Virus record (IMG/VR): IMGVR_UViG_3300046513_000221
Location: 188,001 to 252,000 of that record
Strand: one strand, 5' to 3'
Source of the DNA: a virus
Length of the DNA: 64,000 nucleotides
The position numbers and the translations under genes were made by a program. Numbering within the stretch: position 1 is the stretch's first letter; every line of letters begins with the position of its first letter. The notes beneath the pieces are model-generated. The model had not been told where the DNA came from. It was given only the letters and a program-made list of their open reading frames with translations, and made no database searches. Below, one piece after another: positions 15,054 to 61,536 of this stretch.

Positions 15054-15434
15054 ATGAGTAAACGTAAACAGAGTAAGCAAGATAAAGAAGCCTTGGAGTT
15101 GGAGCGCAAGCTCGGCGGTCTCTTGGGCTGGGTTAACATCGAGCAATCATTGGCAGTTGATGGTACCGTCATCTTCACGGGGATTGCACCGAAGAGCAGT
15201 AAGGTCAGCGTCCTCCCGCAATGGGTACGCGACTGGCGCGACTGCGGTCCTCTGCTGACTCAGGTCAGTATGATCGCGATCTACATCGACAAGGACGCCG
15301 ACGAGATCGAGTGTCATGTCAATTCTCCAAACATGTCGAAGTACAATGACTTGGCACTGCGCATGGGGATCGTCGAATCCTTTATTGACGACATCGAAGA
15401 ACAGAAAGAAGAAGAACCTGTATGCTCCAGCTAA
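15054..15434 (+). CDS. Hypothetical protein upstream of RNA polymerase beta' fragment
   Basis: 126 residues from ATG 15054 (GAGGGTG upstream). An in-frame ATG at 15027 lies inside the promoter motif and is unlikely. The N-terminus is very basic (MSKRKQSKQDKE), the C-terminus acidic (IDDIEEQKEEEP). The middle has a hydrophobic pattern (PQWVRDWRDCGPLLTQVSMI). It overlaps the RNA polymerase gene by 13 bases, so the two are likely coupled. No family recognised. Confidence 0.65.
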   Translation: MSKRKQSKQDKEALELERKLGGLLGWVNIEQSLAVDGTVIFTGIAPKSSKVSVLPQWVRDWRDCGPLLTQVSMIAIYIDKDADEIECHVNSPNMSKYNDLALRMGIVESFIDDIEEQKEEEPVCSS

Positions 15435-16780
15435 AACCACGTAACATCGACGATGCATTCGTCGAAGCAAATCTGATCACCAATCACGAGCCACTGAGCA
15501 GCGATGCCAAGTTCACCCTCGACGGCGTCTTCTCCGAGAAGATCTTCGGCACGATGGCGAACGGCATCGACTACTCCTGCACCTGCGGGTGCTATCAAGG
15601 CGAGTTCAACAAGGGCTACGAGTGCGAGATCTGCAACGACCCTGTCGTGTTCAAGGGTCTGGCGCTGAAGAAGGAAGGCTGGATCGATCTGGAGTACCCG
15701 ATCATCCACCCGGTCTTCTACCGCTACCTGAAGAAGATCATCGGTGCGACCAATCTGCAGTCGATCATCAACTACAAGGGCAAGATCAAAGTGTCCGGCC
15801 AGCTGGACGAGGCTCCGCTGGAGTACCCGTTCCACGAGATCGGCATGATGCGTTTCATCGAGAACTTCGAGACCATCGTGGACAGCTACATCAGCCAGAA
15901 GTCCGAGAAGGCCGTCAAGCACGCCAAGGATATCGCCTTCATCGTCGAGCATCAGGAGCTTGTGTTCATCACCAAGTACCCGATCATCAACAGCCGCCTC
16001 CGTCCGGCGACCATCCTGAACGGCGAGTTCAGCTTCGACGCGATCAACAACCTGTACAACGGCATCATCCGTGGCTCCGGTCTGCTGCGCGATCTGACCG
16101 AGATCGAGAAGAACGACATGAACATCCTGTCTCTGGTCTACAAGAACCAGATGCTGGTGAACGAGTTGTTCGATACCGTCATCGACACGCTGTCCAACAA
16201 GGACGGCTACATCCGTGGCTCCCTGATGGGATGCCGCCTGAACTGGTCGAGCCGCAACGTCATCACGCCGCTGACCGGCAAGTACGGTATGGACCAGTGC
16301 GTCATGCCTTACCTGACCGCGATCGAGCTGCTGAAGCCGCTGATCATGCGCAAGCTGCAGAAGCTGAAGAAGATCAGCATCGCGGCGGCGCACAAGATCT
16401 GGTTCGAGGCCAATCTGGTCTACAACAAGCTCGTGCACAGCATCATGCGCGAGCTGGTGAAAGAAAACAACATCCGGATCCTGCTGAACCGTAATCCGAC
16501 GATCTCGGTAGGCTCTATCCTGATGCTGGAGGTAGCCGATATCAAGGAGGACATGGAAGACGTCACCTTGAGCATCTCCAACCTGATCCTGCCGTCCATC
16601 TCCGGCGACTACGACGGAGACGTTCTGAACATCGTCATGCTGTTCTCCAAGGCGTTCGTCGATCTGTTCCGTCCATTCATGCCGAGCAACCTCGTCATCG
16701 ACACCGACAGCGGCGAGTTCAACGGCAATTTCGCACCGTTCAAGGACGTGGCTATCGGCCTCCAGTCCATCGTGAACTAG
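15422..16780 (+). CDS. RNA polymerase beta' subunit, N-terminal half (split polymerase)
   Basis: 452 residues. The zinc ribbon lies near residues 53-75 (SCTCGCYQG ... YECEICNDP). Near the end, LLNRNPTISVGSI is followed by the catalytic metal-binding loop SGDYDGDVLNI, with Asp396, Asp398 and Asp400 corresponding to the NADFDGD motif of cellular beta'. The order matches bacterial beta' N-terminus up to the active site, but the protein is much shorter and stops soon after. The C-terminal half is encoded at 51.7 kb. Such splitting is known from phiKZ-like and other jumbo phages. Overlaps its upstream partner by 13 bases. Confidence 0.92.
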   Translation: MLQLKPRNIDDAFVEANLITNHEPLSSDAKFTLDGVFSEKIFGTMANGIDYSCTCGCYQGEFNKGYECEICNDPVVFKGLALKKEGWIDLEYPIIHPVFYRYLKKIIGATNLQSIINYKGKIKVSGQLDEAPLEYPFHEIGMMRFIENFETIVDSYISQKSEKAVKHAKDIAFIVEHQELVFITKYPIINSRLRPATILNGEFSFDAINNLYNGIIRGSGLLRDLTEIEKNDMNILSLVYKNQMLVNELFDTVIDTLSNKDGYIRGSLMGCRLNWSSRNVITPLTGKYGMDQCVMPYLTAIELLKPLIMRKLQKLKKISIAAAHKIWFEANLVYNKLVHSIMRELVKENNIRILLNRNPTISVGSILMLEVADIKEDMEDVTLSISNLILPSISGDYDGDVLNIVMLFSKAFVDLFRPFMPSNLVIDTDSGEFNGNFAPFKDVAIGLQSIVN

Positions 16781-27579: not shown

Positions 27580-29646
27580 TTACTCTTCGTCGCCGCGTTC
27601 ATCCTGCAGCGTTTCGAGGGCTTCTTCCTCCATCCCCTCGTTCTCCATCGTGATACCGATACCAGAGAAGTACGAGCGAATCACCTGTGCGGCATTCGTG
27701 ATCGTGTTCTCGGTGTCGGTGCCGATGTTGACGCGGTTGATGTTCTGGATGTCGTTGCGCAGCAGCTTGACGATCTGGTTCCGGCGCTCCACGTTGTGCG
27801 AGGAGTAGTGACGCAGGAAGTTCACGATCGGCTTGGAACCTTCTGGGCCGTTGGACAGCATCAGCATGTTGAACGTCTCCTGCTCGCCGAAGCGGATCGG
27901 AGACGAGTTGTTCATCGCGGTACCCTTCTTGTACTGCTCGTTGCTCTTGAACGGAACGTTGAGCAGACTGATCTGACCAGCCGAGCGAACGGAGAACTTC
28001 GACGCGGCCTCGTGCTTCAGCTGAATGAAGTACATGTCGCCGAGGATCTGCGCCTGAAGCAAGCCCTCGAATTTGAGCTTGTTGATGCCGAAGTGGTTAT
28101 ACAGGTTCGACATGATCTGCGGCGTGGCGTTCTCGAAGAAGGGAGGCTGATGGATGTACAGACCCTTCTCGAAGACGGCCTCGCAGTAAGCGTCGATGAA
28201 CTCGTCGGAGTCCGGCTGCGTATCGGCGAACTCCAGCAGCTCGGTACGCTGCAGCGGGTTCAGGATCTCGAAGAACTCCAGAATCGCGTTGAAGAGCCAG
28301 TAATTGCGCTCCAATACCACGCTCTTCGCCTTGAGGATGATCTCGTTGGCGATGAAGTTCAGCTCCTGCTCGAACAGCTGTGCGATGTTCATACGCCCGG
28401 TGACGCCGAGCGGATTCAGCACCACATCCGGGATGCGACCGTCTGCCGTGCGCGGCATCTGGTCATCCGGGATGATGGCGGAGATAACGCCCTTGTTGCC
28501 GTAGCGACCGGTGATCTTCGAACCGATGTAGATGCCGTGGTCCTTGCGGATTTTGAAGCGCAGCACAGCACCCTCGAACTCGGAGCGATCCTGACTGAAC
28601 TTGATGCCCGAGTTGTAGTCCTTGGCCTTCTGGAACAGGAAGCCGACATCGTCGCGCAGGGTCCAGCCGTTCTCTTTGAACTGAGTGATCATGTCCTCCA
28701 GTTCCTGATACTTGGCCTTGTTGTGCTCGATCAGGACGCGGATCGGCTCGTTGAAGGTGTAAGCCAGATCCTTCTCAGCGAAGTTGCTGAAGACCTCGAT
28801 GTCCTCGATGACGCCGTCGAAGAAGAAGCAGGTGTCGGTGCGCTCGATGGTCGCGCCGTTCTCCTTGAAGTCGTTCAGGATCGAACTGTAGTTGATCCGG
28901 CGACGGGCCGCGAGGATGCCGCCCTTGATCTTCTGACCGACCGTCGGGAACGGCTGGTGACGACCCTTGTCGCCGTACAGGTTCAGCAGAACGTCGTTGT
29001 TGTTGACGACGATGTCGGCTTCGGTCACGGAGGTGTGACTGAACTTTTTAGCACCCGACGCACTGAGTGGGATGCCGTCTTCGAAGGTCAGACCGTCTTT
29101 CGCGAGAAACAGCACGTTCAGGTTGACGCCGTACTTCAGATTCAGGCCGTCGTCGTACATGTTGGTGCGCTCCAGCAGCGTTCCGGCCTCCAGAGTATCC
29201 CCGAACTCCATCTCGGGCATTTTCCGTACGTTTTTGTGCCCATAGTTCTCGGTCAGGCGCGACACGGAGGTGTGGTGGAAGACGCCCACGGACTCGTCGC
29301 CGTACAGGAAGAAGTGGTACGCGTTGTTCTCGTTGAACTCCACGGTGCCAATGAAGGTGGCGTCCTCGGTCAACTGGGTGTAGCCCATGCCGTGCGAGTA
29401 CTTACCGACCTGATTCTCGAAGCGGCTGAAGACCTTCGGGATCTCTCCCTCGTTCAGCGTCAGTGCCTGACCGATCTGGCCGGTGAACATGTTCAGGCGC
29501 GAGCCATCACATTTGTTGACGTTTGGAGTGAGGACGTCCTCACCCAAGAAGTAATGGGGTGGTCTTTCCGTCACCACCTCGACGGCCTTAGCGGTTGCGG
29601 TCTTCTTGATGACCTTGGCTGCTTCGGTTGGTTTCTTCTTTGCCAT
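27580..29646 (-). CDS. RNA polymerase beta subunit, C-terminal part (split polymerase)
   Basis: 688 residues. The hallmark beta motif GRYGNKGVISAIIPDDQMP is near residue 380, followed by PDVVLNPLGVTGRMNIAQLF (cellular: GRHGNKGV ... DIVLNPLGVPSRMN). Near residue 550-590 comes the beta clamp region, FSVRSAGQISLL ... PIRFGEQETFNML (cellular: RFGEMEVWALEAYGA). These elements line the active centre and contact beta'. The beta N-terminal half is absent here and was not found in this window. The N-terminal 25 residues are Lys/Ala-rich. Has its own terminator. Confidence 0.93.
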   Translation of the reverse strand: MAKKKPTEAAKVIKKTATAKAVEVVTERPPHYFLGEDVLTPNVNKCDGSRLNMFTGQIGQALTLNEGEIPKVFSRFENQVGKYSHGMGYTQLTEDATFIGTVEFNENNAYHFFLYGDESVGVFHHTSVSRLTENYGHKNVRKMPEMEFGDTLEAGTLLERTNMYDDGLNLKYGVNLNVLFLAKDGLTFEDGIPLSASGAKKFSHTSVTEADIVVNNNDVLLNLYGDKGRHQPFPTVGQKIKGGILAARRRINYSSILNDFKENGATIERTDTCFFFDGVIEDIEVFSNFAEKDLAYTFNEPIRVLIEHNKAKYQELEDMITQFKENGWTLRDDVGFLFQKAKDYNSGIKFSQDRSEFEGAVLRFKIRKDHGIYIGSKITGRYGNKGVISAIIPDDQMPRTADGRIPDVVLNPLGVTGRMNIAQLFEQELNFIANEIILKAKSVVLERNYWLFNAILEFFEILNPLQRTELLEFADTQPDSDEFIDAYCEAVFEKGLYIHQPPFFENATPQIMSNLYNHFGINKLKFEGLLQAQILGDMYFIQLKHEAASKFSVRSAGQISLLNVPFKSNEQYKKGTAMNNSSPIRFGEQETFNMLMLSNGPEGSKPIVNFLRHYSSHNVERRNQIVKLLRNDIQNINRVNIGTDTENTITNAAQVIRSYFSGIGITMENEGMEEEALETLQDERGDEE

Positions 29647-35804: not shown

Positions 35805-37288
35805 TACATACGCTCCAGGAAAGAAAGAACCTCGCTGATGAGAGGCTTCGGGTTCTCCTCGATTGCTTCGAGGTAGGACGACAGGTCGTTCGACTCGTCG
35901 TGGCTTGGCAGGTACTCGAACTCGGTACTCATGATGTCGCCGATGAACACGATGATCGACTTGTTCTCTTCGATCTTCTCGCGGATGAGCGAGTACTTCG
36001 AGAGGATGTTGTGGTAGGACTTGGACTGCACGATCTCGGTGACCAGCTTGCCCTTGTGCAGGTTGCGACGGCCACCCTTCGGACGGATCTGCGCCGTGAG
36101 GATCGCCGCCAGCGTGTAGTACTTTTGATCGAGCAGCCACTGGCGGAAGATCATCAGCATGTACAGGTATTCCTCGCGGTTGCACAACTGGACGTTGATC
36201 TTGTCCTGTGCGCCGAGATAGTGCGTCATCAGGCGCACCTGCATCTGGTTGGGCTGCACCTTGCGGGTGTTGTACGCCAGCTCCTCCGGCGAGAACCGCA
36301 TCTTGCGGCGATCGATGAAGTTCTTGATGTTCTCCTTGTCGATCGTGTACTGCATCTCGTTGGAGTTCACCAGACGCATCTCGACGCGTTGGAACGGGCT
36401 GACGTTGCTCTCGTTGCTGTCGGTGCGGATCTGGCTGATCGGCTTGAAGTTGATCTTGATGTTCTGCGTGAACTGGTACATGATCTGCTGCTTGATCACG
36501 ACGTGCAGGAAAGAGACGATCGACTTGTTGATGTCGAGCTTCGGTATCGTGTCCCGTACGATCTTGCGGAACAGGTCAAGCGACATGACGTGTTCGTCCA
36601 CCGAGATGTTCTTCAGGTACTCCCACATGACGCGGTCGGAGTACAGGGTGTTGTTGACGGAGGACTTAATGAACTTCGTGATCTTCTGCGGCAGGTCCAG
36701 CTCCACGCCGTGCTCGTCGATGTTGAACACACCGAAGATGCGATTGAACACGTTGATCGTGATGTCCTGCTCCTTCTTGATCTGCATCACGTCCATATAG
36801 GAGCAGATCAGAGGGATGACGATTCTCGACATGATCGAGATGCAGATCACCATCTTGGCGTAGGAGTCCTTGAACTGTAGTTCCTCCTCGCCGGTGCGGG
36901 TCTCGATCGAGATCGTGTACTCCGCATTCACCTTCTCGCGGATGGCCGTTTGCAGGATCTCGTCGCTGATCAGCTGCTCGAACAGGAAGTCGATGAACAG
37001 ATTCACGTCGCCGAATGGCACACCTTCCTCGGTATGACCCTCGATGAAGGTACCGTCCTGGATGTTCATCATCACAGTCAGGTAGCTCTCCGGCAGGTCG
37101 TCGTAGAGGTCGAAGAAGTACTTCAGATCCTCGACGATCTTACCGATGATCGAGTTGTACACTCGCTTTCGGTTGATGGGAAAGAGGCAGTACTTGGCCT
37201 CCTCCCCGATGTTAAACAGCTGGGTGAAATCGAAGGTGAAGTCCTTCTCGTTCACACCAAACAGACTATCAATATTCGTGATCGTCAT
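35804..37288 (-). CDS. Large unknown helical phage protein
   Basis: 494 residues, AAAAGGGTACCGC before the ATG. Long helical segments with hydrophobic faces (MVICISIMSRIVIPLICSYM near residues 150-170) and a basic C-terminal region (IRPKGGRRNLHKGK). No catalytic motif. In general style it resembles the 396-residue protein at 55.1-56.3 kb, but I see no clear shared block. Function unknown. Confidence 0.65.
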   Translation of the reverse strand: MTITNIDSLFGVNEKDFTFDFTQLFNIGEEAKYCLFPINRKRVYNSIIGKIVEDLKYFFDLYDDLPESYLTVMMNIQDGTFIEGHTEEGVPFGDVNLFIDFLFEQLISDEILQTAIREKVNAEYTISIETRTGEEELQFKDSYAKMVICISIMSRIVIPLICSYMDVMQIKKEQDITINVFNRIFGVFNIDEHGVELDLPQKITKFIKSSVNNTLYSDRVMWEYLKNISVDEHVMSLDLFRKIVRDTIPKLDINKSIVSFLHVVIKQQIMYQFTQNIKINFKPISQIRTDSNESNVSPFQRVEMRLVNSNEMQYTIDKENIKNFIDRRKMRFSPEELAYNTRKVQPNQMQVRLMTHYLGAQDKINVQLCNREEYLYMLMIFRQWLLDQKYYTLAAILTAQIRPKGGRRNLHKGKLVTEIVQSKSYHNILSKYSLIREKIEENKSIIVFIGDIMSTEFEYLPSHDESNDLSSYLEAIEENPKPLISEVLSFLERM

Positions 37289-38349: not shown

Positions 38350-40050
38350 TTAGATCAGCTGGTTGATACTCAGGAGCATGCCCACGATCGAGACGGACGC
38401 CTTGAGGATCTGGACGTCGGTGTCGATAGGCGCGAGGACTTGTGTTTCCTCGATGCTCTGGAACTGGCGCTCCAGTACGTCGTACATGCGCGAGTCATTC
38501 ATGTGCAGCGCCTCGCGGATCATCTCCAACGCCTCCGGTTGGGAGCGCAGGACAGGATCCTTGCTGATGATGCAGTAGAACGTGTTGTAGTACACGTCGC
38601 GCAGACGGTCGATGACCTGACGCGTGAACTCCAAGTCGAACTGCTTCAGCACCGCGTCGTCCGCATGGATCTCGTCCCAGCGGTTGGCGATAGAATTGGC
38701 CGCAAAGAACAGCGAGATGTTGCCGCCGAATCCGAAGCCCTTCAGCAGGGCCGATTTACAGGCCAATACGGCATCCTCCACGAGGAATCGACGCGTCTGC
38801 TTCTCTTCGGCGGTGATGCCGCCCACCAGAATGCGAACGGACACGCCGTTCAGCTTGGACAGACGGATGCGCAGGTTACCGCGTACCGAAGGCTGGCTGA
38901 TGGGAGTCTCATCGAACTCCTTCTGCAGAACCTGCAGACGCTCGCCGTAGAACGGGGTGTTCAGGGTCATGCCCTGACCTGCGAGGAAGACCGATTTGGT
39001 TCCGGTCAGTTCGAGGCTGCTCGCCGCACCGAGTTGCTTCAGGTCGAAGGTCGCCGGGTCGCGGATGATGTCGGAGTCCAGATAGATTGCCAGATCGAGG
39101 AACTCGTCGTGCTGCAGCTGGCTCGACAGATCGTACGTCTTGACGATGTAGATCTTGTTCTGCTTGCGCAGGAAGTCTGCCATGCAGGTGTTCAGAACGT
39201 CCTGATGGGTCTGGTCGGTGATGACGACGATGTTGCGCGCCGGGTTCGCCTGTTGGACCTTCTTCAGCAGCTCATAGTGCTCGCCGAAGAACTCGTAGCT
39301 CATGAACACGATCGGCTTGTCTACCGTGATGGTGGACTTGTCGCCGAAGTACATGTTGTGCGCCGGACCACGATCGAACGTGAAGCCGTAACGCATGGTG
39401 TGTGACACAGGTGTCAGCGAATCGCGTGGATCCTCTTCGATGCGCACATCCGACAGATAGGACAGACCGGAGAAGACGTTGGCGATGTACTCACCGATGC
39501 GTACATCGTTGTTGTTCGAGATCTGGCTGATGGCCGTCAGCACGCGCTTGCGGTTGTCGCCATTCACCTGATGGGTGTACTTATTCTCGATCTCGCGTTC
39601 GAGATAGAACACCACGCGGTCCAGCAGATCCAGCAGCTGCTTGCGGGTGTACTTCCGGTCGCGCAGGTCCATCAGGGCTTCATACATGAAGCTCGCCGAC
39701 AGAACGGCACTGGTGGAGCCGTCGCCGACGGTCTTGACCAGATTGTAGGACACCTTCTTCAGCAGCTGGTGGACGGCGACGTCCTGCGCAGCAGCATACT
39801 TCAGGTTCTCCAGAATGGTGTAACCATCCTTGGTGATGATCGGAACACCACCATCATTCTCGATCATGGTGTTCGAGCCCAGCGGACCATAGCTCTTCGC
39901 CAGAACGCTGACCAGCGAGGTCAGGAACTTCAGCGTATCACTGTGGAACTGAGCGTCATCCTTGATGACACCTTGGAAAGGCGACGGCGAACCCATTTGC
40001 TGGGCCACAGTCGTCTCGGCAGGTTTCTTTCTTTTCAAAAATTCGAACAT
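38350..40050 (-). CDS. GroEL-like chaperonin
   Basis: 566 residues, close to GroEL (548). ATP-binding elements: SYGPLGSNTMI (54-63), IITKDGYTIL (71-80) and VGDGSTSAVL (108-117, with the equivalent of Asp87 of GroEL). A second part of the site, RRFLVEDAVLACKSALLKGF with GFGGN after it, is near residues 415-440 (cellular: ARVEDALHATRAAV with GGG). Sequence is highly diverged from host GroEL. Related chaperonins are known from a few large phages (for example EL and OBP), where they fold phage proteins without a GroES. N-terminus MFEFLKRKKP is an added extension. Confidence 0.88.
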   Translation of the reverse strand: MFEFLKRKKPAETTVAQQMGSPSPFQGVIKDDAQFHSDTLKFLTSLVSVLAKSYGPLGSNTMIENDGGVPIITKDGYTILENLKYAAAQDVAVHQLLKKVSYNLVKTVGDGSTSAVLSASFMYEALMDLRDRKYTRKQLLDLLDRVVFYLEREIENKYTHQVNGDNRKRVLTAISQISNNNDVRIGEYIANVFSGLSYLSDVRIEEDPRDSLTPVSHTMRYGFTFDRGPAHNMYFGDKSTITVDKPIVFMSYEFFGEHYELLKKVQQANPARNIVVITDQTHQDVLNTCMADFLRKQNKIYIVKTYDLSSQLQHDEFLDLAIYLDSDIIRDPATFDLKQLGAASSLELTGTKSVFLAGQGMTLNTPFYGERLQVLQKEFDETPISQPSVRGNLRIRLSKLNGVSVRILVGGITAEEKQTRRFLVEDAVLACKSALLKGFGFGGNISLFFAANSIANRWDEIHADDAVLKQFDLEFTRQVIDRLRDVYYNTFYCIISKDPVLRSQPEALEMIREALHMNDSRMYDVLERQFQSIEETQVLAPIDTDVQILKASVSIVGMLLSINQLI

Positions 40051-51733: not shown

Positions 51734-53044
51734 ATGGATATCGAATCGAAGCTCTTCTCCTTGAAGGGTAGCGCTATCGACCTCAAGCTGCTGCATGAGC
51801 TCCTCGCCATAAACGAGAACGGCAAGCAGGTGGTCCACCAAAACACCAAGTTCGTACTAGACAAGGCCAAGCTCGAAGCGGCCGGATCGGAGATCCTCCT
51901 CCACAAGGACTTTGATAAGGAACTGGGCAAGGAGACGACCGTTGGCCGCTTCCTGTTCAATCTGCGCCTCTATGCCCTCTACGACCTCATGTACGAGGAT
52001 GTGGAACGGAGGAACAACCCGAAGCAGGTCGATGTGCGCAACAAATTCACTTACAAGAACATCACGCTTACCGCTAGCGCGATGGATGTACTGTATAAGG
52101 AGCTGACCGGGATGATGATCACCTCGGAGATCACTCCCCAAGTGTCGGCCCAGTTCATCGACAACCTGAACTGGATCGGCTTCGTGCTGGTACCCTACCT
52201 CAATCCTTCCCTCGACATCAAGTCGGTCAACGCCGGTCCCGAGATCCGCAAGATCAAGGCACAGGTGCTGGAGGAGCACAAGGACATCATCATCAACAAC
52301 GATGTGAAGAACTTCAACAGCGTGATCGAGGCCAAGGTGCTGAAGTCCGCTGCGGAGATCCTCGACAGGCAGCAGTCCACCGGTAAGATGATCTACGACT
52401 CCGGCGTCAATGGTACTTTCTCGAACAACTACAAGCTGACGGCCCTGTTCCGTGGCGTGGTTCCAAAGAGCGATGACCCGACGCAGTACAAGATCGGACT
52501 GTCGTCCCTGACAGACGGTGTGAGCAAGGACGAGATCGCCCTCGCGGGTGACATCGCGGTGCAAGGCTCCATCGGTCGTGCCATCTCGACGCGTCAAGGC
52601 GGTTACCTCGTCAAGCAGTTCAACTCGGCGTTCCAGTCCCTCGTGGTCGATGATCCCGGCACTAACTGCGGCTCCGTCCGCACGATCACCGTCGAGCTGG
52701 ACGACAAGAACTTCGGCCAGTACCTCTACCGCTACATCATCGACGGCGGTGTGGTCGTCCAACTGTCGCAGGACAACAAGTCGAAGTATGTCGGCAAGAA
52801 GGTCAAGCTGCGTACCCCGTTCTACTGCCGCACCGTCAAGATCTGCAACACCTGCGCCGGTGACATGCTCTACCGCCTCGGCATCAAGAACATCGGTCTG
52901 ACGACCTCCAACATCGGTTCCGCCCTGATGAATGCAGCGCTCAAGGCGTTCCACTCACTGGCCGTGAAGACCGCAAGCTACAACATCGAGGACTTCATGA
53001 GTGAAGTCAAACCATTCAACGGCAACAACAACGGAAAACAATAA
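51734..53044 (+). CDS. RNA polymerase beta' subunit, C-terminal half (split polymerase)
   Basis: 436 residues. Cellular beta' motifs recognised: the block VDDPGTNCGSVRT (about residue 305; cellular DDCGTHEG), then LRTPFYCRTVKICNTCAGDM (about 355-375; cellular RSVLTCDT..VCAHCYG, zinc ligands), then LGIKNIGLTTSNIGSALMNA and LKAFHS (about 385-410; trigger-loop and bridge region, cellular [23 protein letters not shown]). The first 200 residues are not recognisable. Together with the 15.4 kb gene this makes one split beta'. The stop overlaps the next start (TAATG). Confidence 0.9.
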   Translation: MDIESKLFSLKGSAIDLKLLHELLAINENGKQVVHQNTKFVLDKAKLEAAGSEILLHKDFDKELGKETTVGRFLFNLRLYALYDLMYEDVERRNNPKQVDVRNKFTYKNITLTASAMDVLYKELTGMMITSEITPQVSAQFIDNLNWIGFVLVPYLNPSLDIKSVNAGPEIRKIKAQVLEEHKDIIINNDVKNFNSVIEAKVLKSAAEILDRQQSTGKMIYDSGVNGTFSNNYKLTALFRGVVPKSDDPTQYKIGLSSLTDGVSKDEIALAGDIAVQGSIGRAISTRQGGYLVKQFNSAFQSLVVDDPGTNCGSVRTITVELDDKNFGQYLYRYIIDGGVVVQLSQDNKSKYVGKKVKLRTPFYCRTVKICNTCAGDMLYRLGIKNIGLTTSNIGSALMNAALKAFHSLAVKTASYNIEDFMSEVKPFNGNNNGKQ

Positions 53045-53747: not shown

Positions 53748-53790
53748 AAATAACCCCATAGGCCCGTAAAGGGTCTATGGGGGTTTCTTA
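53748..53790. terminator. Bidirectional terminator
   Basis: Stem CCCCATAGGCCC / GGGTCTATGGGG (53754-53782) flanked by AAAGAAATAA and GTTTCTTA. Confidence 0.8.
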
Positions 53791-54609
53791 CTGCTGTATG
53801 TTACCTCTGTTCATCAAGCCCTGCTTGGTGACAAGCGAGCCGGTGATCAGGTTCGATTTTAGACCAGCGCCGATGAAGAACACATCGAGCGTGTTCAGTG
53901 CCTGACCGGAGTGCAGGACGCTGTTCTTGTAGGTCGAGATCGATGCGGTGCCGAGTGCGGAGATCTCCGCTTGCATCTGCATCTTGTGGTTGATGTTGTC
54001 GGCGCGAGCACCCAGCAGCTCCTTGATGATGTAGTTGTCACCGGTCTTGCCTTCCAGCTTGTTGGCGACGTCGGTCATCCAGTTGAACTGGTCGCTGACG
54101 TTGTTGGTCACCGCCAGCAGAGCCGTGGTGTCACCGTCCGTCAGGCGTCCGGTACGCTCGGTCGTGGACAGGGAGCCGGTCAGCTTGGAACGAGCACCCG
54201 CCTTCATGATGTCGGTGTTCATCATGTTCTTCTTGGACAGGATCTGCTGCATCCGCTTGAGGTGGATGTACATCACCGGAACCTTGAATGGCGTGCGGAC
54301 GACCTGACCGTCAGGCGTGGTGTGCCGGACGTACACGAACTCCTCCAGAGGCAGCTTCAGATACTTCGCAGCGGCCTCCACGGTGTCCATGTTGATCTTC
54401 TTCTTCTCGTAGAGGTCCATCTCGACGTAGAAGTTGTTGTTGTCGCTCGAAGCCATCTTGCGGAAGTACGCCATGAACTGGGCGTCCGACATCTTGTCGA
54501 ACTGGGCTTTGTACTTGGCGGCATTCTTGCCGGAAGGATCGAGAATCTTCAGGGTAGTGAGGATTTTATCCTCAACCTGTTTTCTTTTCTGAGGTGTGAT
54601 CGATGCCAT
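53788..54609 (-). CDS. Second, short RNA polymerase beta C-terminal-like protein
   Basis: 273 residues. Two segments resemble the C-terminal region of beta. VPVMYIHLKRMQQILSKKNM followed by KLTGSLSTTERTGRLTDGDT aligns with cellular K-L-x-H-L-V-D-D-K followed by R-F-G-E-M-E. Further on, MQMQAEISALGTAS ... SGQALNTLDVFFIGAGLKSN aligns with the final E-S-F-x-V-L-x-x-E-x-x-x-L-G. It lacks the active-site motif GRxGNKG. A full-size beta C-part is encoded at 27.6 kb, so this is an extra, shortened paralogue. It may belong to a second phage RNA polymerase or act as a regulator. Based on visual alignment only. Confidence 0.5.
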   Translation of the reverse strand: MASITPQKRKQVEDKILTTLKILDPSGKNAAKYKAQFDKMSDAQFMAYFRKMASSDNNNFYVEMDLYEKKKINMDTVEAAAKYLKLPLEEFVYVRHTTPDGQVVRTPFKVPVMYIHLKRMQQILSKKNMMNTDIMKAGARSKLTGSLSTTERTGRLTDGDTTALLAVTNNVSDQFNWMTDVANKLEGKTGDNYIIKELLGARADNINHKMQMQAEISALGTASISTYKNSVLHSGQALNTLDVFFIGAGLKSNLITGSLVTKQGLMNRGNIQQ

Positions 54610-54617
54610 TGAATTTC

Positions 54618-55109
54618 CTATTTCAGTTCAAGCGTATACTGTCCGAGAAACGCCTTAGCGTCTATGGTTTCTACCCGGATGATCTCACGCTTAGGGATAT
54701 GCTGGTCCGTCTTGTACTCATCGACGGCATTGTTGAACTTGTTATTCACCGGGATGAATCTATCCGGAGCGATACAGTACACGTAGAACTGCTTGACTCG
54801 CTCAATATCGGTCGTCGATATCGGTGAATAGCCCTCGATGGTCATGATGCCCTTCTCAGTCTTAAATCGCCTGACTTCCAGACCGATTTGTGTCAGAGAC
54901 GAGGCAAAGCCCATCTCAGCGGCTAGCTGGCGTCCCGCAGATGCATACAAGAACTTGTTGCTCTCAGTCTCGTCCCACTGTATCTCTGCCTTGGTATGAT
55001 CGATTCCCGGTTTGAGGGTGTCGGTCAAATAGTACGATCCATGGTAGAGAACGAGTGGATTGACTTTCTCGCTAAGCAAAAACCTGATCATATGGTCGGT
55101 ATTCATCAT
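54618..55109 (-). CDS. Possible ADP-ribosyltransferase-like protein
   Basis: 163 residues. The N-terminal third has LYHGSYYLTDTLKPG (YHGS at 22-25), then WDETESNKFLYASAGRQLAA (FLYAS at 53-57). The order 'Y-H-G-S/T ... L-x-P-G ... L-Y-A-S' is typical of several ADP-ribosyltransferase-like families (Tpt1 and toxin-type). The catalytic Glu cannot be placed with confidence. In T4, Alt and ModA ADP-ribosylate host RNA polymerase; here the gene lies beside polymerase genes. Tentative. Confidence 0.4.
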   Translation of the reverse strand: MMNTDHMIRFLLSEKVNPLVLYHGSYYLTDTLKPGIDHTKAEIQWDETESNKFLYASAGRQLAAEMGFASSLTQIGLEVRRFKTEKGIMTIEGYSPISTTDIERVKQFYVYCIAPDRFIPVNNKFNNAVDEYKTDQHIPKREIIRVETIDAKAFLGQYTLELK

Positions 55110-55112
55110 AGA

Positions 55113-56303
55113 TCACCGGCATTTGTGGAGCACTATGAGATAAACAAAGTAGGAATACACCGCGTTGCGGTAGGCCATCTTCGTCGGGATGCGGTTCGTG
55201 GCAGCGTACTTACTGCAGTGCAGCATCAGGAACTTATCGAGGATCACCTTGATCTGGATCAGATCCTGATTCGTGGTGTTCGAGATCGAGATCTGGCGCA
55301 GGGCCATGGTGATGAAGTCCGAGCTACAGACCTTCTCGAACGCCTGTGGATCGGCATCGGAGATGATGTTGAAGAGCATACGGAGCATGCTGTCCAGTGT
55401 CTCAGGGTTCTCCTTGATGCGGATCTCGTTGAGCGCCTGATAGACCGTCATGAACGGCAGATTGTTCTTGTTGCTGACCAGCTTCGTCAGACCCATGTTG
55501 ATCTTCATCGACACGTAGTCGTGGACGACGGACTGCGCCAGCTGGTGGATGGTGTCGGACAGGTTGGTCTTATCGACCATCTCGTCCTTGTCATCGAACG
55601 ACTTCTCGGTGTTCAGGTAGTTCTTCTTGTCGCGGTTGTCGTAGTACTCCTCCGCGATGCCGTTGATGATCTTACCGATCCGGTTCTCCATCTGAGGGAT
55701 GTACGTCAGGTACGCCTCGTCGGTGCCGTCGGTCAGGATGCGCTTGTACGTCTCGTGGGACGTCATCACCGTGTCCTTGATCACGTTGTAGTTGTTCTGC
55801 AGCTGCTTGTACTTGAACTTGTTGCTCAAGTTGTTCATGGTATACGCCATGATCTGCGGGTTCGGCGGGAACTGCCAGCTGCGGCGCTGGCGTGAGGAGA
55901 AGAACTTCATCGACAGGTACATGATGAAGAGCTGGGCTTCAGTATCCTTCTTTTGGATCGTCAGTTCGCGGATCACGAGCCACGACAGCATGGTGAACGG
56001 GTCGTTCAGCAGCACGAATGCCTCGCCACGCTTGTTCACATAGCCGAATTCCTTGACGTTATCCTTGAGTGTGGACACGATGTAGCCCGACACCTCCTCC
56101 GGCGCGATGTCCGTGAGATCGAACACCACGTTCTGGTCTTTCACCGCGAAGATGAGACGCTGGGCCGGGGAGCTGTCGAAGATGATTGCGTGGTTGGCAT
56201 CGAAGTACTTCTGGATGCTGAGAACGGCGGCGCGCAGCTTGGCCTTGTCGTTCACTGCTTCCTTGATGCGTTCTTCAAAACCTTTGATGATGTAGGAAGA
56301 CAT
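55113..56303 (-). CDS. Large unknown helical phage protein
   Basis: 396 residues from ATG 56303, with GAAAGAAGAAAT upstream. Blocks include SYIIKGFEERIKEAVNDKAK, QLFIMYLSMKFFSSRQRRSW and VDKTNLSDTIHQLAQSVVHD. Mostly helical, no membrane segment or enzyme motif. I do not recognise it. The next gene starts 3 bases after its stop. Confidence 0.65.
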   Translation of the reverse strand: MSSYIIKGFEERIKEAVNDKAKLRAAVLSIQKYFDANHAIIFDSSPAQRLIFAVKDQNVVFDLTDIAPEEVSGYIVSTLKDNVKEFGYVNKRGEAFVLLNDPFTMLSWLVIRELTIQKKDTEAQLFIMYLSMKFFSSRQRRSWQFPPNPQIMAYTMNNLSNKFKYKQLQNNYNVIKDTVMTSHETYKRILTDGTDEAYLTYIPQMENRIGKIINGIAEEYYDNRDKKNYLNTEKSFDDKDEMVDKTNLSDTIHQLAQSVVHDYVSMKINMGLTKLVSNKNNLPFMTVYQALNEIRIKENPETLDSMLRMLFNIISDADPQAFEKVCSSDFITMALRQISISNTTNQDLIQIKVILDKFLMLHCSKYAATNRIPTKMAYRNAVYSYFVYLIVLHKCR

Positions 56304-56387
56304 ATTTCTTCTTTCGGAAAAGTGTTGCCGCACAATGGTGCTTACTAGTCTATTGTTAACCAGAAAGCTGTTTTCCTTTAGAAGTAA

Positions 56388-57564: not shown

Positions 57565-60408
57565 TTACTGACAGGCTTCGCATTCCTCGAAGCCGGGGTC
57601 GCCCGGACGCATGTAGCATGCGGCACCGGCGTCAGCCTCACCTGCACCCGGAACAGCGACAGGAGCCGCTGCGACAGGTACATTGGACTGTACCGCGTTC
57701 AGTTCACCGCCCCGGCCAGTCGATTTCTCGGCGGAGGTAGCGGAGGTGGTACGCAGGTAGTAGGTGGTCTTCAGACCGCGCTGCCATGCCAGCTTGTAGG
57801 TGGCATCCAGCTTCTTGCCGGAAGCACCGGCCATGTAGATGTTGAGGCTCTGCGCCTGATCGATCCACTTCTGACGGCGAGCTGCCGCCTCGATCAACCA
57901 TTCCGGAGCGATCTCGAACGCCGTTGCATAGACGTCCTTGATGCTCTGTGGGATGCGGCTGATCTTCTGGATCGAACCGTCGTAGAACTTGATGTCCGAG
58001 ATCATGACCTCGTCCCACAGGCCCAATTCTTTCAGGTCGGCAACCAGATAGCGGTTGATGATCGTGAACTCGCCGGACAGGTTCGACTTGACGAACAGGT
58101 TCTGGAAGGTCGGCTCGATGCACGCCGATACGTCGATGATGTTACTGATCGTCGCGGTCGGAGCGATAGCGAGGCAGTTCGAGTTGCGCATGCCGTGGTA
58201 CTTGATGCGCTGACGCAGCTCGTCCCACACCGATTCGCCGTAGAAGCTGTCGGTGTTGATGGTCAGGTACTCGGCACCGCGCTCTTCGGCCAGCAGACGC
58301 TGGGAGTCCTGCGGCAGAATGCCCTTGGACCACAGCGAGCCTTCGAACGTGAAGTAGCGACCGCGCTCGATAGCCATGTCGCACGACGACGAGTAGGCGT
58401 GGTACGCGATCATTTCAGTCGATTTGTCCGCGAACAGGACGGCATCTTCCGAAGCGTACGGGACGTGCATCATCTGCAAGCAGTCCTGGAAACCCATCAT
58501 GCCCAGACCGACAGGGCGGTGGCGCATGTTGGAGTTCTTTGCCTTCTCGACCGAGTAGAAGTTCAGGTCGATGACGTTGTCCAGAATGCGCATTGCAGTC
58601 TTGACGGTCTTCGCCAGTTTCGACTCGTCGATGTCGTACACCGGTGCGCCGGTGATGGCATCGTTGCCGATCTTGATCATGTGAGCGACCAGATTGACGG
58701 AGCCAATGTTGCATACGGCGATCTCGTCGGCGCTGGTGTTCAGGGTGATCTCGGTACACAGGTTCGAGCTGTGAACGACGCCCATGTGCTGCTGCGGCGA
58801 ACGGATGTTGCACGGATCCTTGAAGGTGATCCATGGGTGGCCGGTCTCGAACAGCATCGACAGCATCTTGCGCCACAGATCGACGGCCTTGACGGTCTTG
58901 AACAGCTTGATCTCGCCGGTCTGCGTCTTGCGCTCGGCGTTGGTGTAGGCGGTCTCGAATGCGCGACCGAACAGATCGTGCAGGTCGGTGACGTCGGAAG
59001 GCGAGAACAGGGTCCATTCACCCTTCTCCATGACACGCTTCATGAACAGATCGGGGATCCAGTTCGCGGTGTTCATGTCGTGAGTACGACGGCGCTCATC
59101 GCCGGTGTTCTTACGCAGGTCGAGGAATTCCTCGATGTCGAGGTGCCACGTTTCCAGATAGGCGCAGACAGCGCCCTTGCGCTTGCCGCCTTGGTTCACG
59201 GCGACGGCGGTGTCGTTCACCACCTTCAGGAACGGTACGACGCCTTGCGACTTGCCGTTCGTTCCCTTGATGCGAGCGCCCAGCGAACGAACTGGAGTCC
59301 AGTCGTTGCCCAGACCGCCAGCCCACTTCTGCAAGCGAGCGTTGTCGTGGATACCGTCGTAGATGCCGTCCAGATCATCGCTGATCGTGGTCAGGAAGCA
59401 CGATGCCAGCTGCGGACGCGTAGTACCGGAGTTGAACAGCGTTGGGGTGGAATTCATGTACTCGAACTGCGACAGCAGGTCGTAGAACTCGATGGCGCGA
59501 GCTTCGCGGTCGGACTCGTTCAGGGCCAGACCCATAGCCACGCGCATCCAGAAGATCTGCGAGGACTCGTAACGAACTTCTTCCTGATGCAGGAAGTAGC
59601 GGTCGTACAGGGTTTGCAGACCGATGAAGCTGAACTGCGCATCGCGTTCCCACTTCAGGGCCGCTTGCAGACGGTCCAGATCGTAGGTTGCCATTGCCGG
59701 TTGCAGCATTTCCAGCTTGACGCCCAGCTCGATCGATGCGCGCAGCACCTGATCGCGTTCCGGTTTGTTCAGGTGGAAGAAGACTTCCTTGTGGATGTCA
59801 TCGGCCAGCAGACGTGCAGTCACTTGATTGTACTGCGGCTCGGTCTCGATGAAGCCACGAGCGGCCATCAGGACAGCCTTGTCGATCTCGGCTTCGGTGA
59901 CGCCGTTGTACAGCTGCTGGTACATCACATCGAAGATGGCGTCCGGGTTAACGTTGTCCAGACCCTTGCAAGCGTCCTTGATGCGGATGCGCAGGTAAGC
60001 GGTCGATACGATACCCTCGGTACCGTCGGTGTTGATCATGCGCATCTTGATTGCGCCGCCGTTGTCGTGGCCCACTTCGCGCTCGGCGCGGTGGCGGTTG
60101 CGGTAGATGACGTAGTCACGTGCCACATCGTGCAATGCGGAGCGCATCATGTACAGTTCGACGGTGTCCTGCACGGTCTCGATGTTGACGGCGGTCAGGC
60201 CGGAGCGTTCGCAGGAGGCTTCCAGATGTTTGACGATGTCGATGGTCAGGGTAGCTGCCAGTTCGCGCTCGCCTTGCGACAGGACGCCAGCGCTGTTGCG
60301 CAGTTGACCATCGGCATCCTTCAGCATTGCTTGCAGGATTGCGTTGGTGATCTTTTCCGCTGCGAAAGGCACTACGTTACCATCGCGTTTGATAATCTTA
60401 TCCAGCAT
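57565..60408 (-). CDS. nrdA: Ribonucleoside-diphosphate reductase, alpha subunit (class Ia)
   Basis: 947 residues, longer than E. coli NrdA (761). The N-terminal 100 residues form an ATP-cone (IKRDGNVVPFAAEKITNAIL); a second cone-like and N-terminal domain follows. Active-site elements: SCFLTTISDD (about residue 336; first redox Cys), SSNLCTEITL (about 549; thiyl Cys and Glu of the N-x-C-x-E motif), and MRNSNCLAIAPTATISNIID. The C-terminal CEACQ carries the shuttle Cys pair. Reduces ribonucleotides to deoxyribonucleotides with NrdB. The long form with two cones resembles that of Pseudomonas-type bacteria rather than T4 (754), hinting at acquisition from a bacterial host. Confidence 0.96.
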   Translation of the reverse strand: MLDKIIKRDGNVVPFAAEKITNAILQAMLKDADGQLRNSAGVLSQGERELAATLTIDIVKHLEASCERSGLTAVNIETVQDTVELYMMRSALHDVARDYVIYRNRHRAEREVGHDNGGAIKMRMINTDGTEGIVSTAYLRIRIKDACKGLDNVNPDAIFDVMYQQLYNGVTEAEIDKAVLMAARGFIETEPQYNQVTARLLADDIHKEVFFHLNKPERDQVLRASIELGVKLEMLQPAMATYDLDRLQAALKWERDAQFSFIGLQTLYDRYFLHQEEVRYESSQIFWMRVAMGLALNESDREARAIEFYDLLSQFEYMNSTPTLFNSGTTRPQLASCFLTTISDDLDGIYDGIHDNARLQKWAGGLGNDWTPVRSLGARIKGTNGKSQGVVPFLKVVNDTAVAVNQGGKRKGAVCAYLETWHLDIEEFLDLRKNTGDERRRTHDMNTANWIPDLFMKRVMEKGEWTLFSPSDVTDLHDLFGRAFETAYTNAERKTQTGEIKLFKTVKAVDLWRKMLSMLFETGHPWITFKDPCNIRSPQQHMGVVHSSNLCTEITLNTSADEIAVCNIGSVNLVAHMIKIGNDAITGAPVYDIDESKLAKTVKTAMRILDNVIDLNFYSVEKAKNSNMRHRPVGLGMMGFQDCLQMMHVPYASEDAVLFADKSTEMIAYHAYSSSCDMAIERGRYFTFEGSLWSKGILPQDSQRLLAEERGAEYLTINTDSFYGESVWDELRQRIKYHGMRNSNCLAIAPTATISNIIDVSACIEPTFQNLFVKSNLSGEFTIINRYLVADLKELGLWDEVMISDIKFYDGSIQKISRIPQSIKDVYATAFEIAPEWLIEAAARRQKWIDQAQSLNIYMAGASGKKLDATYKLAWQRGLKTTYYLRTTSATSAEKSTGRGGELNAVQSNVPVAAAPVAVPGAGEADAGAACYMRPGDPGFEECEACQ

Positions 60409-60495: not shown

Positions 60496-61536
60496 TCAGT
60501 CGTCCCAGTCGTCCAGCTTACCGCCGACCTGATAGTCAACGACGCGGGTCTCGAAGAAGTTCTTCTCCTTCTTCAGGTCGATCATCTCCGACATCCACGG
60601 GAACGGGTTCTCCTCGCCGGGGAACATCGGGTCCAGACCGATCTGCAGCAGACGGCGATTGGCGATGAAGCGCAGATAGCCTTTGAACATGCTAGCGTTC
60701 AGGCCCAGCACGCCGTTCGGCATGGTGTCCTCGGCGTACGCGTACTCCAGATCGACCGCCTTGGTAAACAGGGTGCGGATCTCGGCGACGAACTCGGCGG
60801 TCCACAGGTGCGGATTCTCCATCTTGATCGTGTTGATCAGGTCGATGCCGAAGTTGCAGTGCATGGACTCGTCGCGGAGGATGTACTGGTACTGCTCGGC
60901 AGCGCCAGTCATCTTGTTCTGGCGACCCATCGACAGGATCTGCGCGAAGCCGACGTAGAAGAACAGGCCTTCCATGATGCATGCGAAGACGATCAGCGAC
61001 TTCAGCAGCTTCTGGTCGTTCTCCATTGTACCGGTCTTGAAGGCCGGGTCAGTCAGGGTGTCGATGAACGGGATCAGGAACTGGTCCTTGTCGCGGATCG
61101 ACTTGACTTCGTTGTAGGCGTTGAACAGCTCGCCTTCGTCCATGCCGAGCGACTCGACGATGTACTGGTAGGCGTGGGTGTGAATTGCTTCCTCGAACGC
61201 TTGGCGCAGGAGGTATTGGCGACATTCAGGGGCCGTGATGTGACGGTAGGTACCGAGCACGATGTTGTTTGCTGCCAGCGAGTCGGCGGTGACGAAGAAG
61301 CCGAGGTTGCGCTTGATGATACGGCGCTCGTCGTCGGACAGGCCGTCCTTGCTCTTCCACAGCTCGATGTCGCGCTGCATGCTGATCTCTTGCGGCATCC
61401 AGTGGTTCGCGCAGCCGTTCAGGTACTTATCCCATGCCCACTTGTACTTGAAAGGTACCAGTTGGTTGACATCGGTCTGACCATTGATGATGCGCTTGTC
61501 AGCGGCGTTCACTCGCCCCAAGTTGCTAGTTTCCAT
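60496..61536 (-). CDS. nrdB: Ribonucleoside-diphosphate reductase, beta subunit
   Basis: 346 residues. Di-iron ligands: Asp in [11 protein letters not shown], Glu and His in [14 protein letters not shown], Glu in MEGLFF, and Glu/His in [13 protein letters not shown]. The Tyr in HTHAY is at the place of the radical tyrosine (Tyr122 of E. coli). C-terminus ends KLDDWDD. NrdB generates the tyrosyl radical for the alpha subunit. It is upstream of nrdA, separated by a hairpin, in the reverse order to most bacteria. Confidence 0.95.

Follow-up and report, generated by a model that had tools for sequence, protein, structure and literature searches.

A separately encoded C-beta protein, very probably of the virion RNA polymerase, in an uncultivated phiKZ-related jumbo phage

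The window analysed here, 64,000 nucleotides long, corresponds to bases 188001–252000 of a 263,413-bp IMG/VR virus record. A 273-aa open reading frame on its minus strand was found together with the following genes and signals (window positions; vRNAP, virion RNA polymerase).

51734–53044, plus strand: predicted Mid-beta' of the same vRNAP as C-beta, of the SPN3US gp42 / phiKZ gp80 type (PHROG 2962, E 1.1e-66)
53754–53782, no strand assigned: candidate terminator, a G+C-rich hairpin of 12 pairs with a T-rich flank on the plus strand, between the ends of the convergent 233-aa and C-beta genes
53788–54609, minus strand: predicted C-beta of vRNAP, 273 aa, ATG start (PHROG 3233, E 3.7e-39)
54615–54619, minus strand: AGGAA, which resembles a ribosome-binding site for C-beta; it lies 5 nt before the ATG and reaches into the end of the preceding gene
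54618–55109, minus strand: 163-aa gene directly upstream of C-beta (PHROG 13483)
55113–56333, minus strand: 406-aa gene (PHROG 2921), orthologue of the phiR1-37 structural protein g205

The three protein genes on the minus strand form an apparent operon, which starts with the 406-aa gene, continues with the 163-aa gene and ends with C-beta, the gaps being 3 and 8 nt. The 406-aa protein showed 41% identity to phiR1-37 g205 and 61% to the gene of contig L077. The arrangement is similar in phiR1-37, where g205, a virion protein, lies two genes upstream of the C-beta gene g203 and in its operon. The slot between them is occupied by g204 (PHROG 2767) in phiR1-37, whereas the 163-aa PHROG 13483 gene is found there in this phage, and the family search did not find PHROG 2767 in this genome. 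In the closest relatives a PHROG 2767 gene lies directly upstream of C-beta (L077 2711–4210; phiR1-37 g204, L001 10487–12004), and the L077 protein contains the stretch HEVGHHFY, which resembles a metalloprotease site. On the downstream side, the neighbour at 51.7 kb had been taken in the original prediction for the beta' C-terminal gene and for an immediate neighbour. Its family, for which the best match is a 432-aa frame of SPN3US, identifies it as Mid-beta' instead, and a 233-aa ORF separates it from C-beta. The Mid-beta' gene runs convergently towards C-beta in this phage, whereas the two genes are consecutive on one strand in contig L077. The hairpin at 53754–53782 may act as a terminator; it is a consensus match only, in a region where 9 terminator-like sites were found against 4.0 expected.

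The match of the 273-aa protein to PHROG 3233, annotated as 'RNA polymerase beta subunit', covered residues 6–255 of 273 and positions 2–223 of the 225 in the profile. Comparison by hhalign of a profile built from the protein and seven relatives gave an alignment with E. coli RpoB 1158–1310 (E 7e-8, about 18% identity). When the same eight-sequence profile was run against all PDB sequences, significant E-values were obtained solely for RNA polymerase beta chains and always at their C-terminus (E. coli beta 1161–1309, E 1.4e-7). A broader profile of 20 rows, which included more distant ones, gave weak scores against the PDB (best E 0.05), with beta C-termini making up 30 of its 30 matches. With the single sequence, a Pfam scan found no beta domain and nothing at E ≤ 1, and phmmer against the PDB returned chance matches alone; a profile is therefore needed to show the relationship. 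AlphaFold models of the isolated chain from two runs, with 16 and 20 sequences, reached a mean pLDDT of 51 and 54 and were confident only for the first 60 residues or so. Structure searches of the PDB with these models gave no significant match, the models being too poor for the absence of RNA polymerase beta to be informative. The second model places helices first, then a hairpin (89–113) and a helix (117–129), an order which we take to be compatible with the C-terminal region of beta and did not count as evidence. Judged by the profile alignments, the protein is a real homologue of the last ~190 residues of beta, remote from the cellular subunit. E. coli RpoB contains this segment (~1158–1342) within its single chain, whereas C-beta is a separate polypeptide in this phage. 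The likeness to the end of beta and the lack of GRxGNKG, both of which had been predicted from the letters, thus held in the profile comparisons and in the sequence, respectively.

Orthologues of the protein were recognized in phiKZ (gp149), SPN3US (gp218), phiR1-37 (g203) and AR9 (gp077), and annotations or papers put all four in virions. PHIKZ149 is annotated as 'RNA polymerase beta subunit, structural head protein', g203 as RNAP beta / 'phage structural protein', and gp077 as 'contained only RNAP domain is found in virions, virion RNAP subunit'. PHROG 3233 occurred in exactly one place each in phiKZ (PHIKZ149), phiR1-37 (g203) and this genome. In AR9 it matched three pieces, all within the split gene gp077, and in SPN3US a 222-aa gene gave a strong match, with one further weak match (E 0.03). 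The 222-aa gene (ACQ60_gp048) is presumably the published gp218, since its length fits and the genes of the record are numbered in reverse; by the same logic the 1401-aa and 240-aa genes of SPN3US fit gp241 and gp244. The top match in the annotated phage collection was g203, 49% identical along 97% of the 273-aa protein. Yersinia phage phiR1-37 appears to be the nearest named phage, and the uncultivated 263-kb phage would lie on its branch. Two metagenomic contigs from IMG/VR encode relatives that are 66% identical to the 273-aa protein. Such relatives on viral contigs were found with two- and four-sequence alignments, and a scan of the viral contigs with the 273-aa protein alone found none.

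The orthologues differ in size and composition. Those of phiKZ and SPN3US are shorter (224 and 222 aa), about 23% identical to the 273-aa protein and devoid of an insertion of ~22 residues that is present here (residues ~168–189). They have the same beta split, family and invariant residues and are likewise encoded away from N-beta and N-beta'. In the Bacillus phage AR9 the RNAP part of gp077 is homologous (44% over 134 residues); its N-terminal HD domain is removed by proteolysis and its gene is split, with an HNH endonuclease gene inside. C-beta of the present phage, in contrast, is a plain single ORF without N-terminal extension. The C-beta of Staphylococcus phage UFV_DC4 (UFVDC4_00134, L060 166–2199) carries an N-terminal extension of ~430 residues, apparently unlike the HD domain that is fused to C-beta in Bacillus phages.

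Searching the genome family by family for polymerase subunits revealed all five known parts of vRNAP. In addition to C-beta and Mid-beta', and together with the subunits of a non-virion polymerase (nvRNAP), these were:

genome 38779–40308: predicted vRNAP N-beta', DYDGD intact, related to phiKZ gp180
genome 64298–64978: predicted vRNAP C-beta', from the family search
ending at genome 88109, outside the window: predicted vRNAP N-beta, a 1,405-aa open frame, from the family search
window 15422–16780, plus strand: predicted nvRNAP N-beta' catalytic subunit, with DYDGD (PHROG 2987, E 1.3e-86)
window 27580–29646, minus strand: predicted nvRNAP C-beta, with full GRYGNKG (PHROG 3295, E 1.5e-98)
window 35807–37288, minus strand: predicted nvRNAP subunit of the promoter-specificity type, AR9 gp226 family (PHROG 25005, E 3.4e-44)
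genome ~79.1–80.7 kb: predicted nvRNAP C-beta'

The protein at 35807–37288 would be the promoter-specificity subunit of nvRNAP by analogy with AR9, in which the best match of the family lies at 194417–195808. The PHROG 25005 profile matched AR9, phiR1-37 and this genome, and none was found with it in phiKZ or SPN3US. Two multisubunit polymerases, with N-beta/C-beta split sites that differ between vRNAP and nvRNAP, have been described for phiKZ-related jumbo phages (review, PMC7598289). The vRNAP of SPN3US consists of gp241 (N-beta, 1401 aa), gp218 (C-beta, 222 aa), gp240 (N-beta'), gp42 (Mid-beta') and gp244 (C-beta') (PMC5105663). As read from its genes, the present phage also encodes two such enzymes with beta cut at different points, late in the case of vRNAP.

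The position of this cut bears on the relation between the 273-aa protein and the gene at 27.6 kb, which does carry the active-site motif in full, as had been proposed. The 273-aa protein had been described as a second, shortened repeat of the end of beta. The vRNAP N-beta carries the catalytic lysines; its residues 1116–1171 (GNKLTFFSAAKGIVSEV...) aligned to RpoB 1063–1117, and 24 residues remain to its end. N-beta thus stops near RpoB ~1117–1140 and the 273-aa protein resumes near ~1158. We therefore regard the latter as the part of vRNAP beta that N-beta lacks and not as an abridged copy; N-beta and C-beta together make, by these alignments, one complete beta of a polymerase different from that of the 27.6 kb gene. 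An nvRNAP C-beta of PHROG 3295 is a long protein that combines GRxGNKG with the beta C-terminus, and the 273-aa protein is not of this kind. When the two C-beta proteins of the window were compared, hhalign returned a probability of 0.5%, which means essentially no detectable similarity.

Since both genes encode the C-terminal region of beta, a recent partial duplication of the nvRNAP C-beta gene that left a redundant fragment could be considered. We give this next to no credence: the negligible mutual similarity stands against 49–66% identity to phiR1-37 g203 and the IMG/VR relatives, the alignment of the orthologues likewise contradicts a copy, and the split type is common to phiKZ-related phages. 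The original prediction had also raised a dominant regulator. Such a regulator or decoy would be a truncated piece of beta, bound to nvRNAP or to the host polymerase, whose activity it would block or alter. Competition for the N-terminus of beta' is conceivable for a stand-alone piece of the beta C-terminus that lacks GRxGNKG. However, the protein is orthologous and similar in size to the virion C-beta of phiKZ, SPN3US and phiR1-37, its profile hardly resembles that of the nvRNAP C-beta, which it would have to mimic, and N-beta, ending where it does, requires the fragment for completion of beta. On these grounds and on the alignment with RpoB 1158–1310 we rejected the regulator as highly improbable; nothing supported such a role and none is needed. 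Of the original prediction as a whole, the part in a virion polymerase stood, and the redundant copy and the regulator did not.

In the alignment of C-beta with its relatives, ten residues did not vary across 20 relatives; these include R119, Q122, K126, K127 and E197. The patch R119-x-x-Q122-x-x-x-K126-K127 corresponds to RpoB 1234–1242, and the HMM alignment pairs R119, Q122 and K127 with RpoB K1234, H1237 and K1242. The position of His1237 is occupied by Gln in all 20 aligned rows of vRNAP C-beta, and that of Lys1242 by an invariant Lys. In nvRNAP C-beta, in contrast, His is retained at the former position, as seen in this phage, AR9 and phiR1-37. A further change was seen in the vRNAP N-beta (genome ~87.9 kb), where FFSAAKG replaces GRHGNKG and both catalytic-site lysine positions (equivalents of Lys1065 and Lys1073) are kept; N-beta of phiR1-37 is similarly altered, with FFTSLKT in place of GRHGNKG. 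His1237 and Lys1065 of E. coli beta are, as we assume from cross-linking studies, located at the initiating nucleotide. The Gln for His1237 and the degenerate GRHGNKG might then point to a consistently altered initiating-nucleotide pocket in the vRNAP lineage, with the nvRNAP of the same phages keeping the cellular residues. We consider this proposal speculative and rather unlikely to be correct. If true, it might reflect a different RNA-chain start in an enzyme that needs ejection and reassembly.

The Gln at the His1237 position, the location of the catalytic lysines in another subunit and the presence of C-beta in the virions of relatives would also fit a structural virion protein that retained the beta C-terminal fold and no longer takes part in an active polymerase. 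This has hardly any chance of being correct when the behaviour of the relatives is considered. In phiKZ, gp149 was co-precipitated with gp178, gp80 and mCherry-tagged gp180, a set that includes the catalytic subunit of vRNAP (PMC10612078). In SPN3US all vRNAP subunits, gp218 (beta-C) included, were found in virions (Table 5) and all were lost in an N-beta amber mutant, so that packaging of gp218 depends on N-beta (PMC5105663). The invariance of R119, Q122, K126, K127 and E197 and the intact DYDGD of N-beta' likewise speak against a purely structural role.

Because the orthologues are known virion C-beta proteins and all other vRNAP pieces are present in the genome, the assignment to a virion polymerase is strongly supported, and we are nearly certain that the 273-aa protein is the C-beta of the vRNAP of a phiKZ-related jumbo phage. 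What the sequences themselves show is homology and orthology, the fit of the protein to N-beta and the presence of the five subunits in one genome. For the location in the virion, the association with the head and the membership of the complex we draw on papers about the relatives; these properties, like the function, would extend to this phage by analogy. C-beta would join N-beta, N-beta', Mid-beta' and C-beta', either ahead of head packaging or while it is under way, and, as in SPN3US and phiKZ, the packaged polypeptides would be ejected into the cell along with the DNA. There it would complete an enzyme that transcribes early genes ahead of any phage protein synthesis, supplying the beta segment downstream of the DPBB and active-site lysines (from ~1158 onwards in E. 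coli beta). Its patch R119-Q122-K126-K127 would lie near the initiating nucleotide, as in cellular enzymes.

The protein is thus an ordinary and expected component of an already known enzyme class in a new phage. The result sets right the notion that this phage has a superfluous second beta end, and it shows an uncultivated 263-kb phage with the complete set of five known vRNAP core pieces alongside a second polymerase. As of a 2020 review, no vRNAP had been purified (PMC7598289). The C-beta described here is compact, has no HD fusion or intron and has a metagenomic relative at 66% identity; it may be convenient for reconstitution.

Elsewhere in the window, a gene for a GroEL-like chaperonin (PHROG 5725) lies at 38350–40050 on the minus strand. 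Genes for the large and the probable small subunit of ribonucleotide reductase were found at 57565–60408 and 60496–61536, both on the minus strand. Parts of these reductase genes showed ~73–75% DNA identity to Pseudomonas putida jumbo phages, the sole near DNA matches found for the window between 40 and 64 kb.
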